Assembly (NCBI GenBank): GCA_002721275.1
Contig: PBJZ01000012.1
Location: 129,711-167,179, forward strand
Length of the DNA: 37,469 bases
From: Flavobacteriaceae bacterium
GTDB taxonomy: Bacteria > Bacteroidota > Bacteroidia > Flavobacteriales > Flavobacteriaceae
Direction: 5' to 3'
The position numbers and the translations under genes are program-made. Below the pieces are notes generated by a model. The model ran no database searches. It was not told the origin of the DNA and saw nothing but the letters and a program-made list of their open reading frames with translations. Below are positions 15,223 to 22,139 of this stretch, piece by piece (the stretch's first letter is position 1; each line of letters starts with the position of its first letter).

Positions 15223-16506
15223 TTATTGCTTTTTGTATTTATTTTGATATCGATTCCAAAGTTTAGTTTGGTGTGTTTCAAGACTTATTTTTCTTCCATC
15301 TATGTAGGCATGAGAGATATTGTTACTTCTCATGTCAAGTGCGTCACCATCAGACAAAATTAATGTAGCACTTTTACCTTTAACTATTGATCCGTAGTTT
15401 TTGTCAATTTTTAATATTTTTGCAGCGTTATACGTTATCAATTTTAGAGCTTCTTCTTTCTCGAGTCCAAAAGCACTGAAAGTACCTGCAAAAAATGGAA
15501 GATTTCTTGTGTGAATTCTTTCCATTGAGCCAGCTAGATCGATACTAACTAATAAACCACCGTCAACAAGAGTTTTTGCCAATTTGTAGGGATAGTTTAG
15601 GTCTTGATCTTCACTTAGCGGGAGTCTATGGGGTTTTGAAATTACAACCGGTATTTCATGTTTCTTCAAGAAATCAATTTGATTTTCAGATTCCTCTCCA
15701 TGAATCAAAACTATATTTTTTATTTTTTTACTTTTCAAAAAACTTACTCCATCAACAATTTGTTTCTCATAATTTGCGTGAAGATAAAGCGTTTGAGAGC
15801 CATCAAAGATTTTTTTCATTGACTCATACGGAATGTTTAAAGGTGATTGTTTTATAGAAACTTTCGATTCCGAAAAAAAATTATCAATCAATTTCACGGA
15901 TTTTAAATAATTTTTATTTTTTGTTAGTTTTCTATTTCTGTAATCAATGGAATATGGTGATGGCCAATTCAGATGAATTCCTTCATCTGACTTAATTACC
16001 GCATCTTCCCAATTCCAGGCATCCATTTGCATTATTGATGATTTTCCAGAAATAACACCCCCCCTTGGCGTAACCTGAGCAATTAAAACTCCGTTAGGCC
16101 TTACGCTTTCGATTATTTTTGATTCTGCATTGTAAGCAACTAGGCTTCTTATGTGTGGTAAAAAGTCTCCAATTTCATCTTGGTCTCTGCTAGCTCTAAC
16201 TGCATCAATTTCGACTAAACCTAATGTTGAATTTACGGCAATGAAACCAGGGTAAAGATGTTTTCCTCTTGCGTTAATCACATTGAACTTTTCGTTTATT
16301 GAGTCATTTGAAATTGATTTACCAACATAAGTTATTTTACCCTCAGAAAAACCAACAGCACCGTCTTCTATGATTTCTCCGTTACCAATATGAACAAAGC
16401 AGTTATTAATAAGTATTTTATTTGTTTGCTCGTCGCCAGGAGTTTGTTGACTAAAGCTCATATTAAATAAGAGTAGGCTTGTAAGCGTAAAAATTTTTTT
16501 TATCAT
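15223..16506 (-). CDS. secreted amidohydrolase-like protein, metal ligands apparently lost
   Basis: A 427-residue protein with a signal peptide (hydrophobic residues 5-16, cleavage near SFSQ). The fold is that of the amidohydrolase superfamily: a beta-sandwich N-terminus (KILINNCFVHIGNGEIIED), the GKHLYPGFI turn and a C-terminal LITYNAAKILKIDKNYGSIV followed by KGKSATLILSD. The first metal motif, normally HxH just after GFID, reads VNS here, so the binuclear site cannot form in the usual way. It is probably non-catalytic or a partner of the large amidohydrolase encoded 2 bases upstream, an inference. A C7 run sits inside it at 16058-16064. Confidence 0.85.
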   Translation of the reverse strand: MIKKIFTLTSLLLFNMSFSQQTPGDEQTNKILINNCFVHIGNGEIIEDGAVGFSEGKITYVGKSISNDSINEKFNVINARGKHLYPGFIAVNSTLGLVEIDAVRASRDQDEIGDFLPHIRSLVAYNAESKIIESVRPNGVLIAQVTPRGGVISGKSSIMQMDAWNWEDAVIKSDEGIHLNWPSPYSIDYRNRKLTKNKNYLKSVKLIDNFFSESKVSIKQSPLNIPYESMKKIFDGSQTLYLHANYEKQIVDGVSFLKSKKIKNIVLIHGEESENQIDFLKKHEIPVVISKPHRLPLSEDQDLNYPYKLAKTLVDGGLLVSIDLAGSMERIHTRNLPFFAGTFSAFGLEKEEALKLITYNAAKILKIDKNYGSIVKGKSATLILSDGDALDMRSNNISHAYIDGRKISLETHQTKLWNRYQNKYKKQ

Positions 16507-16508
16507 GA

Positions 16509-19490
16509 TTAATAATCTAGTGTTTCACAGTGAAATTCTTTTTTTGTAATAATTACCGGTGTTTCTGTTTTGTTTCCTTTAGAGGCAACATCAAGCATTT
16601 GTGAAATTAATAAAGATCTTTCTTTTTTGTTTGTTTCAAGCATTTTATTGATTTTATCTGAAGAATAATAAATAGCACCTTGAATCATTGTTTTTTCAGC
16701 TCTTGAATATATTGACATTGGGTGAGAGGACCAGAGAACTAGATCTGCATTTTTATTAACCTTTATACTACCAACACTGTTTTCTATATGTAAAAGCTTA
16801 GCAGGGTTTAATGTTACAAATTTCCATGCTTCCTCCTCAGAAACACCCCCGTATTTAACAGCCTTTGCTGCCTCTTGGTTTAAACGCCTTGACATTTCAG
16901 GATCATCTGAGTTGAAAGCAACTAGCACTCCTGAGTCGTGCATAATGGAACCATTATGTGGAATAGCATCCTTTACTTCAAATTTATATGACCACCAATC
17001 TGAAAAAGTCGAACCACCAGCTCCATGTTTCTTCATTTTATCAGCAACTTTATAACCTTCTAATATATGAGTAAAAGTGTTGATTTTAAAATCAAACTTT
17101 TCTGCCACCTTCATCATCATATTTATTTCACTTTGAACATAAGAGTGACATGTTACAAATCTTTCTCCTTTTAATATTTCCCATATTGTCTCCATTTCTA
17201 GATCATATCTTGGGGGTTTAGCTTTTAATTTTTTTCTTAAAGGTATTTCGTTATACTTAACCCATTTATCACCATATTCTTTTGCTCTTTGAAAGTAATC
17301 AGTAAAAACTTGCTCTACTCCCATTCTTGTTTGGGGAAATCTACTATAACTCTCCCAATTAGATTGTTTTACATTTTCACCTAATGCAAATTTTATAAAT
17401 GGATCTGCATCTTTAAATTTCATATTTTCAATAGATTCTCCCCATTTTAAATTTATTATTGCAGATTTACCTCCAATTGGATTTGCAGATCCATGAAGTA
17501 TTTGAATTGTTGTAACGCCCCCAGATAAATTTCTAAAAATATTTATATCGTCAGGATCAATTACATCACCTATACTAACTTCAGCAGAAGAGTTTTGTCC
17601 GCCTTCATTAATACTAGATGCAGCAATGTGCGAATGCTCATCAATTATGCCTGATGTTAAGTGTTTATTTGTTGCATCAATAACAAAGGTATTTTTTGGA
17701 TAGGGGATATTTTTTCCTACGGATGCAATTTTACCATTAATAACTAATACATCAGTATTTTCTATAATACCTTCAGACTCGTTTGTCCATACTGTTGCAT
17801 TTTTGAAAATTGTATTTTTTTGTTTAGGTATAGATAAATTTCCATAGGCTTTATTGGGATAAGTTACTGGAACAGGATTGTAATAATTTTCATTATCTAT
17901 TTTTCTTTTTTTAGGGTTATCTTTTAATTTTTTGGTAGACCAATACACTATTTTACCTTCAAAATCTATACCTTTTCCTTGAAGTCTGTTGGAATCAATT
18001 TTACATGATAATTGAGAATATTTATTATTTTTTTTATCCAAAATTGTTAAGTTTAACCATTCATTTTCATAGTTTGATTTAACAGGGTATGTAGTTGAGT
18101 CTTTTTTAATTTCAGCTGTTATTTTTTTCTTAGAATTTTTAATTTGAAGTTTGTACTTAAAGTCATTTATAATTAGCTCATAATTTCCATCAATATCTTT
18201 GATGTTATCATTAAGTATGATGTGTGGTTGCCCCTGAACCCAGTTTTCGCTTATAATGGTACCATTTTCGAATAATTCTCCGTTAGTAACTAAAAAGTTT
18301 GCAAGAAATTTCTTTTTTAGTTTTCCGATTATGTTTTGTTGACCCAAAATTTCTGCAGGTACAGTAGTTAATGCTTTTAAGGCGATGTCCCTGTCAAGTC
18401 CATAACTAATTACTTTTCTTAAATTTTTAAAAAATTCTTTTGACGAACTAACCATGGATGAAGTAAAAGCGAATGGTATTTTAGATCTTGACACATGATA
18501 AGGGTTTGAAGGAGCCTGACTCCAAAATCGCATATCTTTTAGACTAATTTTTTTTGTAAGTAATGGATCACTGACATCAAAAGCTTTGGGTAAATTTAAT
18601 GGAAGAATCAGTTTAATTTTATCTTTGTTTAATTCATTTATATTTTCAAATTCCTTTCCGCTAGCAACAATTGTAAAATCAATATTTAGCTCATTGATCA
18701 ATTTTACAATTCTTATTGTATTTAATTTATCAAATCCAGAATCAAAGATTTTGGGAATATTTTTATTTTTAATAAATGCTTCAATTGAAAGATCTTTGGT
18801 TTGGTTATCATTATTGGAATACCATTTAGAATCATAATAAAATTGTCTTATTAAAGCCATAGCACCCATAATAGAACTAGGATAACTTTGATTAGATGTA
18901 ACGCTTTTTTTGAAAGAAAAGTGCTCTGTAGAATTATCTGAAATTATTCTTTTGTTATTATTCTGTTTGTCATTAAGTGCTATCAAAACCCCTGATCCTC
19001 TGTGAATTCCATTAAATCTGTGAGAATTTATAATCCCGAAGCCATAACCTCTCATTTTAGATGCTATTTTTTTATCATAACTGTAGTCTGTAATACTCTT
19101 ATACTCGCTTAGAATGTGATCATTCCAATAATAACCACTTCTGTCAGGATTAAATTGTTCACTCCTTCCATATCTATTTTTTTTTGTAGGTTTTTTTATT
19201 GAAAAATCAGAGAATAATTCTATAAAAGATGGGTAAATATGTTTCCCGCTTTTATCATGTACTATTGTATTTTTTGGCAGTTTAATATCTGTTCCTACAT
19301 CAACTATAACCCCGTTTTTTTCCAGGAGAGTTCCATTTTTTATGACGTTACCTGGTTCTAGATGAATAGTTGCATTAGTAAAGGCGTTATAAGTATTTGG
19401 AACTATTTTAACACCTGAATTTTCTGGGAAGTATACCTGTGCTTTCAGAATACCAATACCTAAAAATGTAAAAAATATTAGCTTTCTCAT
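16509..19490 (-). CDS. large secreted two-domain amidohydrolase
   Basis: A 993-residue protein with a signal peptide (MRKLIFFTFLGIGILKAQ) and two amidohydrolase-type halves. The N-terminal half has the superfamily turn GKHIYPSFIELFSDF but no HxH, so it looks inactive. The C-terminal half, from about residue 560, is intact: GIIDEHSHI with HSH at 619-621, TCHSY, FTHILEGYK and a VAFNSDDPE acid motif, followed by FVTLNPAKLLHIENSVGSIK. These are the ligands of imidazolonepropionase- and prolidase-like amidohydrolases. The substrate is unknown; a periplasmic cyclic amide or peptide is possible. Gaps of 2 and 29 bases to its neighbours indicate an operon with the smaller homologue and the DUF3810 gene. 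Confidence 0.9.
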   Translation of the reverse strand: MRKLIFFTFLGIGILKAQVYFPENSGVKIVPNTYNAFTNATIHLEPGNVIKNGTLLEKNGVIVDVGTDIKLPKNTIVHDKSGKHIYPSFIELFSDFSIKKPTKKNRYGRSEQFNPDRSGYYWNDHILSEYKSITDYSYDKKIASKMRGYGFGIINSHRFNGIHRGSGVLIALNDKQNNNKRIISDNSTEHFSFKKSVTSNQSYPSSIMGAMALIRQFYYDSKWYSNNDNQTKDLSIEAFIKNKNIPKIFDSGFDKLNTIRIVKLINELNIDFTIVASGKEFENINELNKDKIKLILPLNLPKAFDVSDPLLTKKISLKDMRFWSQAPSNPYHVSRSKIPFAFTSSMVSSSKEFFKNLRKVISYGLDRDIALKALTTVPAEILGQQNIIGKLKKKFLANFLVTNGELFENGTIISENWVQGQPHIILNDNIKDIDGNYELIINDFKYKLQIKNSKKKITAEIKKDSTTYPVKSNYENEWLNLTILDKKNNKYSQLSCKIDSNRLQGKGIDFEGKIVYWSTKKLKDNPKKRKIDNENYYNPVPVTYPNKAYGNLSIPKQKNTIFKNATVWTNESEGIIENTDVLVINGKIASVGKNIPYPKNTFVIDATNKHLTSGIIDEHSHIAASSINEGGQNSSAEVSIGDVIDPDDINIFRNLSGGVTTIQILHGSANPIGGKSAIINLKWGESIENMKFKDADPFIKFALGENVKQSNWESYSRFPQTRMGVEQVFTDYFQRAKEYGDKWVKYNEIPLRKKLKAKPPRYDLEMETIWEILKGERFVTCHSYVQSEINMMMKVAEKFDFKINTFTHILEGYKVADKMKKHGAGGSTFSDWWSYKFEVKDAIPHNGSIMHDSGVLVAFNSDDPEMSRRLNQEAAKAVKYGGVSEEEAWKFVTLNPAKLLHIENSVGSIKVNKNADLVLWSSHPMSIYSRAEKTMIQGAIYYSSDKINKMLETNKKERSLLISQMLDVASKGNKTETPVIITKKEFHCETLDY

Positions 19491-19519: not shown

Positions 19520-20572
19520 TTATTTTAATTTATTCATTTGATTATTGATATCAAAGATTATAAGGGCTACTACTTCATTATAGCTTGAAACACCACTTTT
19601 TTGACCATTTAATTTTAAAAATTTATCATATGAATAAGTGAATAAAAATTCAAAAGGATTATTATATTTTTTCCAAAACTGATTTAATTCCGCAATGTTT
19701 TTTTTAATTCCAGTATTTATTTTGTTAGAAAAATCTTTACCCTTTAAACTATCACTTAAAAGTAGTGTATTTAAACAGTGTCTTAAAGCAAATACATATC
19801 CAGCATATTGAATATAATCATTCTTATGAGTTGTTGTTCTTTTATAGGCAAAATAGCTGGCTTCATTTTCAGCAGCAATACCTTTTTGATGTGATTGCTC
19901 ATGAGCAATGGTAACGATATAACTAAGCATAGGAATATTCTCATTAACATGTGCCTCCAGAGTAAAAGGATTTATATATCCCGAGAACCCCATATATGAT
20001 AGAAGCTCAGTAAAAAAAGAACTCTTTACACAAAAATAAACTCCTGAATTGTTAAAATATAATTTAGCTTGCTTCTTGTTAAAGGGAAAGTTAACTTTTA
20101 AAGAATCATTATTTGTTAGCTTAAAGTTCAATTCATTTGATTTATTAATTAAATAGTTTACAGTTTTTTCAAGTTCGATTTGATCATAGTTATTTTTTAT
20201 TTTCGCAGAGAGCCCCTCCTTTTTATAATTTAACCCCCAACTGATTTGAAAGAAAAAAAACGCAATACTTGCAAATGATAAAAACTCAAACAAAAAAACT
20301 TTTTTATGAGTCAAATAAAAAATACTTTTTATCCATAACTGATAAATAATTAAAAAAATAATAATAGCGTAAATAATATCACCAATTGAAAAATTTATGT
20401 ACGATAATAGAAATAATCTGGTATTAGCTATTTTATCAAAGTTGTCAATGTAATAATTAAAAAAATAATCAAAAAATGTTTTGTTTCTGTACCAATAAAT
20501 TTGGGCAGGTAATAAAAAAATAAATATTAATAATATTCGGTTATATTTATATGGACTCCCAGATTTATTCAA
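19520..20572 (-). CDS. DUF3810 membrane protein with zinc-protease motif
   Basis: A 350-residue membrane protein. The N-terminus has two or three hydrophobic segments (about residues 12-30, 45-85 and 92-110). The soluble C-terminal part carries HEQSH at 224-228 followed by a downstream Glu in AAENEASYFAYKR, the layout of HExxH zinc proteases. The family is known only as a domain of unknown function, so protease activity is an inference from the motif. The start is TTG at 20572 with no upstream in-frame ATG before a stop. It is 20 bases downstream of the cyclophilin-FKBP gene. Confidence 0.85.
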   Translation of the reverse strand: MNKSGSPYKYNRILLIFIFLLPAQIYWYRNKTFFDYFFNYYIDNFDKIANTRLFLLSYINFSIGDIIYAIIIFLIIYQLWIKSIFYLTHKKVFLFEFLSFASIAFFFFQISWGLNYKKEGLSAKIKNNYDQIELEKTVNYLINKSNELNFKLTNNDSLKVNFPFNKKQAKLYFNNSGVYFCVKSSFFTELLSYMGFSGYINPFTLEAHVNENIPMLSYIVTIAHEQSHQKGIAAENEASYFAYKRTTTHKNDYIQYAGYVFALRHCLNTLLLSDSLKGKDFSNKINTGIKKNIAELNQFWKKYNNPFEFLFTYSYDKFLKLNGQKSGVSSYNEVVALIIFDINNQMNKLK

Positions 20573-20592: not shown

Positions 20593-21612
20593 TTAATTAA
20601 TCTTAACTAATTCAACTTCAAAAATTAGTATTGAATTTGGAGGAATAACATTCCCTGCGCCTCTTTCACCATATGCTAATTCACTAGGAATAATAAGTTT
20701 TGCAGATTCACCCTCATTAAGAAGTCCGATTCCTTCGTCCCAACCAGGTATAACTTGTCCTACCCCATATGTAAAATCTAATGGTTGATTACGATTGTAT
20801 GATGAGTCAAAAATGGTTCCATCCAACAGCATCCCTTTATAATGAACTGATACTAAATCTCCTTTTTTTACTTTTTTACCAGCTACTTTTTTTAGTATAG
20901 AATATTTTAATCCTGAATTTGTTTTAATCATTCCACTTGATAGACTGTCTAGAATTTTTTTTTGATTTTTTATCTTATTTTGTCTTTTGATTTTTTGTTC
21001 CAGCTCTAATTTTTCTAATTGATTAATAAAAACTTTAGGTGCATCAAAAGATTTAGCTTTTGATCCATTTCTTAAAATTTTTAAAGATAATATGGTGTCA
21101 TTTTGTCTAATGCTATCAACTACATTTTGGCCTTCTATAACATTACCAAAAACTGTATGTTTTCCGTCTAACCAAGAAGTTTCCTTATGAGTTATAAAGA
21201 ATTGACTACCATTTGTATTTGGACCTCTATTTGCCATAGATAAAACTCCAGGTCCTGAGTGTTTTAATTCAGTGATTTCATCAGGAAAGTTAAAACCTGG
21301 ACCACCTGAACCAATACCAGTAGGATCACCAGCCTGAATCATAAAATCATTAATAACTCTATGAAAGATTATCCCGTCATAGTATTTTTTCCCAGTGAAC
21401 TCTTCATTTAAATCAGTACTTGGATGATTTCCTTCTGCTAGTGAAACAAAATTCGCTACTGTTAATGGTGTTTTTTTATATTCTAAGTTTATTAAAATAT
21501 CACCTTTATTAGTTTTTAATTTGGCATAAAGACCAGATTGGTGATCTTTTAAATCATCACTGCATTTAAAAAAGAAGATTGAGATTGTGAGGTAAAAAAG
21601 AGATTTTTTCAT
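20593..21612 (-). CDS. cyclophilin-FKBP fusion peptidyl-prolyl isomerase, lipoprotein
   Basis: A 339-residue foldase with two unrelated proline-isomerase domains. After a lipoprotein-type signal (Cys17), residues about 28-195 are a cyclophilin, with GEHFTGK-region variants, [31 protein letters not shown] and [12 protein letters not shown] charged linker (about 196-240) leads to an FKBP domain (about 245-339) with [28 protein letters not shown] and LAYGERGAG plus [13 protein letters not shown]. Dual-family immunophilins of this order are known in some Bacteroidota. It probably helps fold exported proteins at the periplasmic face. Its start overlaps the gldI stop by ATGA, so the two are tightly coupled. 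Confidence 0.93.
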
Positions 21613-22139
21613 TTTTTAATTTTTGATAATGTTAATAAATTTATTTTTATTCTCAAAGGTTGATTAGATCCGATTTTTTCAAAGTCTCCCTGATATCCAA
21701 AACATAAGTAAGATGGAAATATAAAAACTCCTGAATCTCCTTCGGATAAATATTTGACACCTTCACGAAGTGCAGGCATCACATCTTCTTGATCAACTAA
21801 AAAACTAACATTCCCTATCTCATTTGCACTGTAAAGTATATTATTATTTAAGTCCTCAATAGCATAAATAATTTTAACAAAATCACCTTTTTTTGCCAGT
21901 CTTTCATTTTTATTTCCATTTTGTATTGAATACAAAAAACCCTTTGGGGATGATTTATAGATGTTTAATGAATCATTTTTGGCTGAAATATTCATTAAAA
22001 ACTGCTCCCTTGACGCCCTCAATTTATTTTTAGTCGCTGACTTTTTAATAAATGACATAGGATTTTTGTTAATCGGAGAACGAGTTTGTACCTCATCACA
22101 TGAGATCAAAATAATTATTAAGCTGAGAAATCTATTCAT
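21609..22139 (-). CDS. gldI: gliding motility-associated FKBP-type isomerase lipoprotein GldI
   Basis: A 176-residue lipoprotein with a lipobox LISC at residues 11-14. The C-terminal domain is FKBP-like: [39 protein letters not shown] and [12 protein letters not shown]. In Flavobacterium johnsoniae GldI is an isomerase-like lipoprotein required for gliding motility. Here the assignment rests on domain type, lipoprotein form and the coupled isomerase gene; no other gld or sprA-type gene lies in the window, so motility itself is not shown. It overlaps the nrnA stop by 8 bases. Confidence 0.82.

Follow-up and report, generated by a model that had tools for sequence, protein, structure and literature searches.

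The window analysed here, a stretch of 37,469 nucleotides from a Flavobacteriaceae bacterium, carries on its minus strand two adjacent genes for exported proteins of the amidohydrolase superfamily. The first, L (16509..19490), encodes 993 residues and is a fusion of a degenerate barrel (N) with an intact one (C); the second, S (15223..16506), encodes a single degenerate barrel of 427 residues. We consider it likely that L and S form an obligate heteromeric, exported metallohydrolase, in which one active site, that of C, is accompanied by pseudoenzyme subunits. Each homologous set has one intact metal site; the degenerate ('dead') domains have lost their ligands, are conserved, are retained together with the live domain, have in part been fused to it, and fall into a fitting tree. 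We infer that N, C and S are parts of one exported complex, in which C would need the dead barrels and might act on a small peptide-like substrate.

The two genes are 2 bases apart (16507–16508), as given by the open reading frame (ORF) list and the sequence. Direct reading of the C half of L (about residues 556–948; 16647..17825, minus strand, as for all features of L and S) reveals the motifs GIIDEHSHIA, with HSH at 619–621, FVTCHSYVQ, TFTHILEGYKV and VAFNSDDPEMS. The HxH metal ligands H619 and H621 (17628..17636) are followed by K700 (17391..17393), the invariant lysine of IKFALGEN and a candidate for the bridging lysine, and by H782 (17145..17147), H808 (17067..17069) and D862 (16905..16907), which we take, from the amidohydrolase superfamily, to be two further metal ligands and the catalytic Asp. 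In the N half of L (about residues 24–428; 18207..19421) the stretch GKHIYPSFIELFSDFS is without HxH, and F93-S94-D95 stands in its place. S, with GKHLYPGFIAVNSTLG, likewise lacks HxH and has N92-S93-T94 at this position (16225..16233). Both proteins exceed the gathering score (25) of the Pfam model Amidohydro_1 (L 55.4, S 31.9) and thus belong to the superfamily. Signal-peptide-like segments were found at both N-termini (approximately 19440..19490 in L and 16450..16506 in S) by sequence reading, with a rough hydrophobicity test over homologues. A preliminary description of this DNA had claimed an intact C-terminal active site, N and S domains without HxH, genes 2 bases apart and signal peptides on both proteins. 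Direct reading, together with the Pfam matches in both proteins, bears this out, the signal peptides having been read by eye.

The same distribution of ligands was found in homologous domains collected from deduplicated loci, domains shorter than 300 residues being dropped. The complete HxH pair of His was found in all 175 C domains, whereas no S domain of 170 and a single N domain of 143 has it. All four His and the Asp are intact in every C domain, as in catalytic members of the superfamily. A lone His is left at the first HxH position in eight S and three N domains, and at the third position in four S and 12 N domains, the N figures including the exceptional domain of locus L081, which has both His and lacks the other ligands. 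The pattern of one live and two dead domains is beyond chance, because it recurs over all of these domains. The remaining positions were compared in a joint alignment with 65 dead rows (21 S1, 10 S2, 13 S3 and 21 N1, the window S excluded), 44 C rows and four rows of solo enzymes. All C and solo rows keep every ligand, whereas the dead rows keep the lysine in one of 65, the beta-5 His in seven, the beta-6 His in none and the Asp in eight (4 of 13 S3 and 4 of 21 N, the alignment being least sure there). The C lysine, K700, is invariant in alignments A2 and A3 and in all T0, C1, C2 and C3 rows of the joint alignment. The earlier claim that metal ligands are confined to one domain thus holds for HxH and has to be qualified for the other positions: the window S keeps His at two of them, H243 and H269. 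This is unusual in the S family; at the H269 position none of the 44 other sampled S rows has His, and Gly is near-invariant.

The model of S is a confident amidohydrolase barrel (mean predicted local distance difference test (pLDDT) 92.9; predicted template modelling score (pTM) 0.91). The single-chain model of L (mean pLDDT 88.2, pTM 0.85) contains two barrels, the N barrel having pLDDT values mostly above 80 and no fold-search row of its own. Between the barrels lies a predicted beta-rich insert (about residues 430–525; 17916..18203, from the secondary structure of the model), an addition to the preliminary description. The closest solved structure to C is that of a Thermotoga maritima amidohydrolase, 3ooq (phmmer E 2.6e-49; Z 47.0, with 368 residues aligned at a root mean square deviation of 2.1), and the same structure is closest to S (E 9.3e-25; Z 45.5). 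3ooq consists of a single chain, the alignment shows its metal-ligand residues, and no function for it was found. For C and S alike, the fold-search rows after 3ooq reach a Z of only about 25; for C these are, at about 23–25, 2qs8, 3feq and 3mtw, which are dipeptidases and prolidases of the COG1228 type, and the isoaspartyl dipeptidase 1onw. Imidazolonepropionase (HutI), which the preliminary description had offered for comparison, has superfamily and fold in common with L and S, but was rejected as the closest relative: with C, 2g3f reaches a Z of only 22.7 versus 47 for 3ooq, and the scores with NCBIfam hutI (L 48.7, S 28.5) are far below the cut-off of 298.15. The Xaa-Pro dipeptidase model NF051886 has a cut-off of 500, with L at 63.1 and S at 30.5, and among the best 25 rows per protein no NCBIfam model came near its cut-off.

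Within the phylum of the window the two genes are present or absent together. We searched 296 Bacteroidota genomes with one query per gene (E ≤ 1e-20 for L/C and E ≤ 1e-10 for S, the latter confirmed by profile in part of the genomes only). An L/C match was found in 170 and an S match in 169 genomes, presence and absence agreeing in 295. The window's own family contributes 21 genomes with both genes and nine with neither. No genome of the 296 has S alone, and the sole mismatch, an L/C match in G007 without an S match, is an artefact, because masked bases (N) stand where its gene continues; we therefore rejected G007 as a genome with the large gene only. The survey thus did not reveal genomes with only one of the genes, a finding that the preliminary description had named as speaking against it, and its expectation that the small protein travels with the large one was supported even where the genes lie apart. 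They do so in 20 genomes, with certainty in six (contig ends over 15 kb away from both genes: G043, G059, G086, G101, G204 and G279) and less certainly in 14, as different contigs do not prove distance (G023, G027, G105, G113, G136, G144, G168, G192, G212, G220, G232, G247, G275 and G283). Linkage alone therefore does not explain the joint retention. A second search covered the 16 genomes whose matches were weak or odd, and the regions of 14 were fetched; 13 of these have a separate HxH-less partner beside the live gene, which in L151 is an edge fragment, and the 14th is G007.

The set of live and dead domains was rejected as a peculiarity of the window genome, since it recurs across ten named phyla. 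These were counted in a scan for C over genome contigs, from which the best 80 of at least 587 confirmed stretches were kept: 37 are from Bacteroidota, 23 from Acidobacteriota, eight from Planctomycetota, three from Gemmatimonadota, two from Armatimonadota and one each from five further phyla, and two have no phylum name. Many are metagenome bins, and the phylum labels rest on record titles. The genes are separate in 58 of the 80 loci; N-C fusions were found in 10, C-S fusions in seven (labelled Acidobacteriota, Planctomycetota and Actinomycetota) and N-C-S fusions in five. The last are single proteins of 1390–1538 residues, all from Planctomycetota and including one from Singulisphaera acidiphila. 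S is present in the locus or the genome of all 80, once as a fragment only. Four loci are incomplete in the stretch itself: L167, at a contig start, lacks N, and L164, L220 and L225 lack S. The genomes of L220 (E 2.8e-143) and L225 (E 4.9e-145) have S at another place, and that of L164 has, outside the stretch, a piece of 137 residues. Because they are kept together, and are sometimes fused, in ten phyla, the dead copies are probably functional components of the enzyme.

Of 200 Pseudomonadota genomes, 16 match C at E ≤ 1e-60, the sixteenth being Idiomarina (L232). Sixteen regions from the other 15 genomes all pair an HxH-bearing C with an HxH-less S; 13 are of type 3, with no N in the stretch (and HxH in none of the 13 S), one is of type 2, and two have an N-C fusion. 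The type 2 pair consists of two adjacent genes in L142–L150. A second, more distant live and dead pair of this type is fused in an 889-residue minus-strand ORF of S. acidiphila (L245). On a plasmid of Hymenobacter volaticus (L284, 3419–6467), several open frames together make up a broken copy of the N-C gene, and S follows it.

Relatives without a partner are also known. Four solo enzymes from Bacillota and Actinomycetota (Acetoanaerobium, Nonomuraea, Cytobacillus and Monoglobus) have all ligands intact, no partner within 3.5 kb and, by reading, no obvious signal peptide at their N-termini; whole-record searches for three of them (two of the records being plasmids) gave no second strong S-type match. 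In a tree without outgroup, all C are split from all S and N (support 100/99). When the solo enzymes are included, their rows attach between the two clades (C 100/99, S+N 99/96), with C1 and C3 joined at 100/99 and S1, S3 and N1 at 99/99. The branching order is the same in the live and the dead half: type 2 splits off first and types 1 and 3 stay together, as would follow from joint inheritance. The N rows fall within the dead clade, with a nearest sister that varies between the trees (S1+N1 61/45 with the solo enzymes, versus S1+S3 56/26 without outgroup). As judged from the sequences, the tree fits as if a solo enzyme had been duplicated once and one copy had lost its metals.

The origin of the set may be pictured as starting from a solo enzyme of the kind found in some Bacillota and Actinomycetota, which would have been duplicated once, the copy that died becoming an obligate partner; in the type found in the window, the dead copy would have been duplicated again, giving rise to N. 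The C barrel would be the only active site of L and S, and N (fused to C here) and S (separate) would be pseudoenzyme subunits of the same ancestry that lost their metals long ago. They may be retained because C needs them in order to be assembled, stabilised or regulated, or to position its substrate. The preliminary description had suggested a periplasmic complex whose degenerate domains are regulators or substrate binders; this is supported in part, and the dead domains may also do no more than scaffold. A wider proposal, for which we see about even chances, is that one ancient duplication of a solo hydrolase produced two chains, one live and one dead, which have remained an obligate heteromer in at least ten phyla, that a second dead domain and repeated fusion came later, and that the dead barrels are dedicated substrate-binding or allosteric subunits of an exported enzyme.

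Heteromers of an enzyme and a pseudoenzyme are already known as a kind; the breadth of the N/C/S set is unusual. For aspartate transcarbamoylase of Pseudomonas aeruginosa, an inactive dihydroorotase-like chain is reported to be necessary for its activity, and the complex of transcarbamoylase and pseudo-dihydroorotase melts about 30°C above its parts (PMC7053772). The systems would be alike in that an inactive chain of amidohydrolase type supports an enzyme; they differ in that the P. aeruginosa chain supports an unrelated transcarbamoylase (PMC7053772), whereas the dead chain here travels with a live relative of its own superfamily and the two appear to be exported. Our searches of the open-access literature, which were mostly narrow, gave no title or opening of an abstract in which the N/C/S set is described. 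In the annotated sequence records that we examined, live and dead genes are both annotated as ‘amidohydrolase’ or ‘amidohydrolase family protein’, which hides that one of them probably is not an enzyme. The set flags a widespread exported hydrolase and is a natural case of enzyme and pseudoenzyme partner inside one superfamily, where a comparison can take in solo relatives, pairs of separate genes and complete fusions, and the contribution of a dead barrel to a live one becomes testable.

A different explanation would have S and N serve as exported binding proteins in their own right, for instance in substrate capture or sensing, which belong to the pathway of C and do not form a stable complex with it. 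It would suit the genomes in which S lies far from N-C or on a different contig, and the conserved features that S has of its own (D108 and a GG.ISG loop). This we consider unlikely, as the C-S and N-C-S fusions, from loci labelled with three phyla, favour physical association. It is much less probable still that S, N or both catalyse reactions through a different metal site or without metal. The fold of S is intact (pLDDT 92.9), and among 76 aligned S sequences D108 is invariant and E99 and E111 are conserved in at least 90%, E111 aligning where most C carry a conserved Glu; moreover, some S retain one or two of the old His, as in the window, and the N domain of L081 has HxH. However, the 76 S share 11 invariant columns, which include no ligand position and no His or Cys, the L081 domain is without the remaining ligands, and the sampled S and N rows have hardly kept the lysine, the two later His and the Asp, as counted above. 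The preliminary description had named alternative metal ligands in S as a possible objection; no conserved His or Cys replaces the lost ones, and the conserved acids remain. The loss of ligands would agree with a decay of S and N into remnants that linkage maintains, but this reading is largely refuted by their open frames and conservation over ten named phyla, by retention apart from C and by joint absence with C, and a pseudogene status of S was rejected because S is conserved, has an open frame and is absent together with C.

Several points weigh against an obligate heteromer of L and S and its proposed descent. The L model (pTM 0.85) is a single chain and silent on S, and the evidence for a binding of S to C is indirect. 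Fusion and co-occurrence can also come from a shared pathway. The profiles that sorted domains into S, N and C were made from the same families; if an S resembled C and had HxH, it may have been assigned to C. Fast-evolving degenerate sequences can pull S and N together falsely (long-branch effects), and with distant outgroups the clades are less sure (C 92, S+N 74, outgroup 54). The set may have spread between phyla by horizontal transfer; the window S stands at much the same distance from Idiomarina as from its own phylum, the nearest named loci being Chitinophagaceae for the window N and C and, by a hair, Idiomarina for S. Finally, among 106 scanned neighbour genes (of 121 chosen), those common to different phyla belong to common families only, and for this reason the substrate is a guess.

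Export of the homologues was assessed by a home-made hydrophobicity rule on guessed starts, misses of which do not show absence. Most members have signal-peptide-like starts, which were detected, in three sets each, in 67 of 82, 52 of 64 and 11 of 12 S proteins, in 17 of 19, 57 of 58 and 12 of 13 unfused C proteins, and in 2 of 4, 54 of 60 and 1 of 2 unfused N proteins. N-C fusions have such starts in 56 of 63 cases, but in 4 of 10 in the GTDB set; for the other fusions the counts are 5 of 8 (C-S) and 4 of 4 (N-C-S).

A peptide-like substrate is a tentative suggestion, rather less likely than not, for which the fold neighbours of C and, in a few lineages, peptidase and transporter genes give weak hints. 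An NlpC/P60–SH3-like gene is located downstream in 10 Cyclobacteriaceae loci (a BLAST cluster, checked with Pfam in L177, L178 and L160, where the L160 protein is a shorter form). A gene for about 700 residues, with Peptidase_M28 in the two that were scanned, is downstream in nine loci of this family and, as a cut-off piece, in L175. Most of the Cyclobacteriaceae loci L176–L192 have the NlpC/P60–SH3 and M28 peptidase genes 3' of S on the same strand, and these gene runs suggest a peptide-degrading operon in that family. Three of the 13 type 3 loci from Pseudomonadota have a transporter gene upstream (POT family in the one scanned), and one Qipengyuania plasmid has an annotated peptide transporter.

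In the window, L is preceded on the same strand, at a distance of 29 bases, by a DUF3810 gene (19520–20572; Pfam E 3.8e-73), and S is followed on the same strand by a gene for a SpoU-type RNA methylase (Pfam). A little upstream of this run, a gene at 20593–21612 encodes cyclophilin and FKBP domains in one chain and is overlapped by a second FKBP-like gene (21609–22139).

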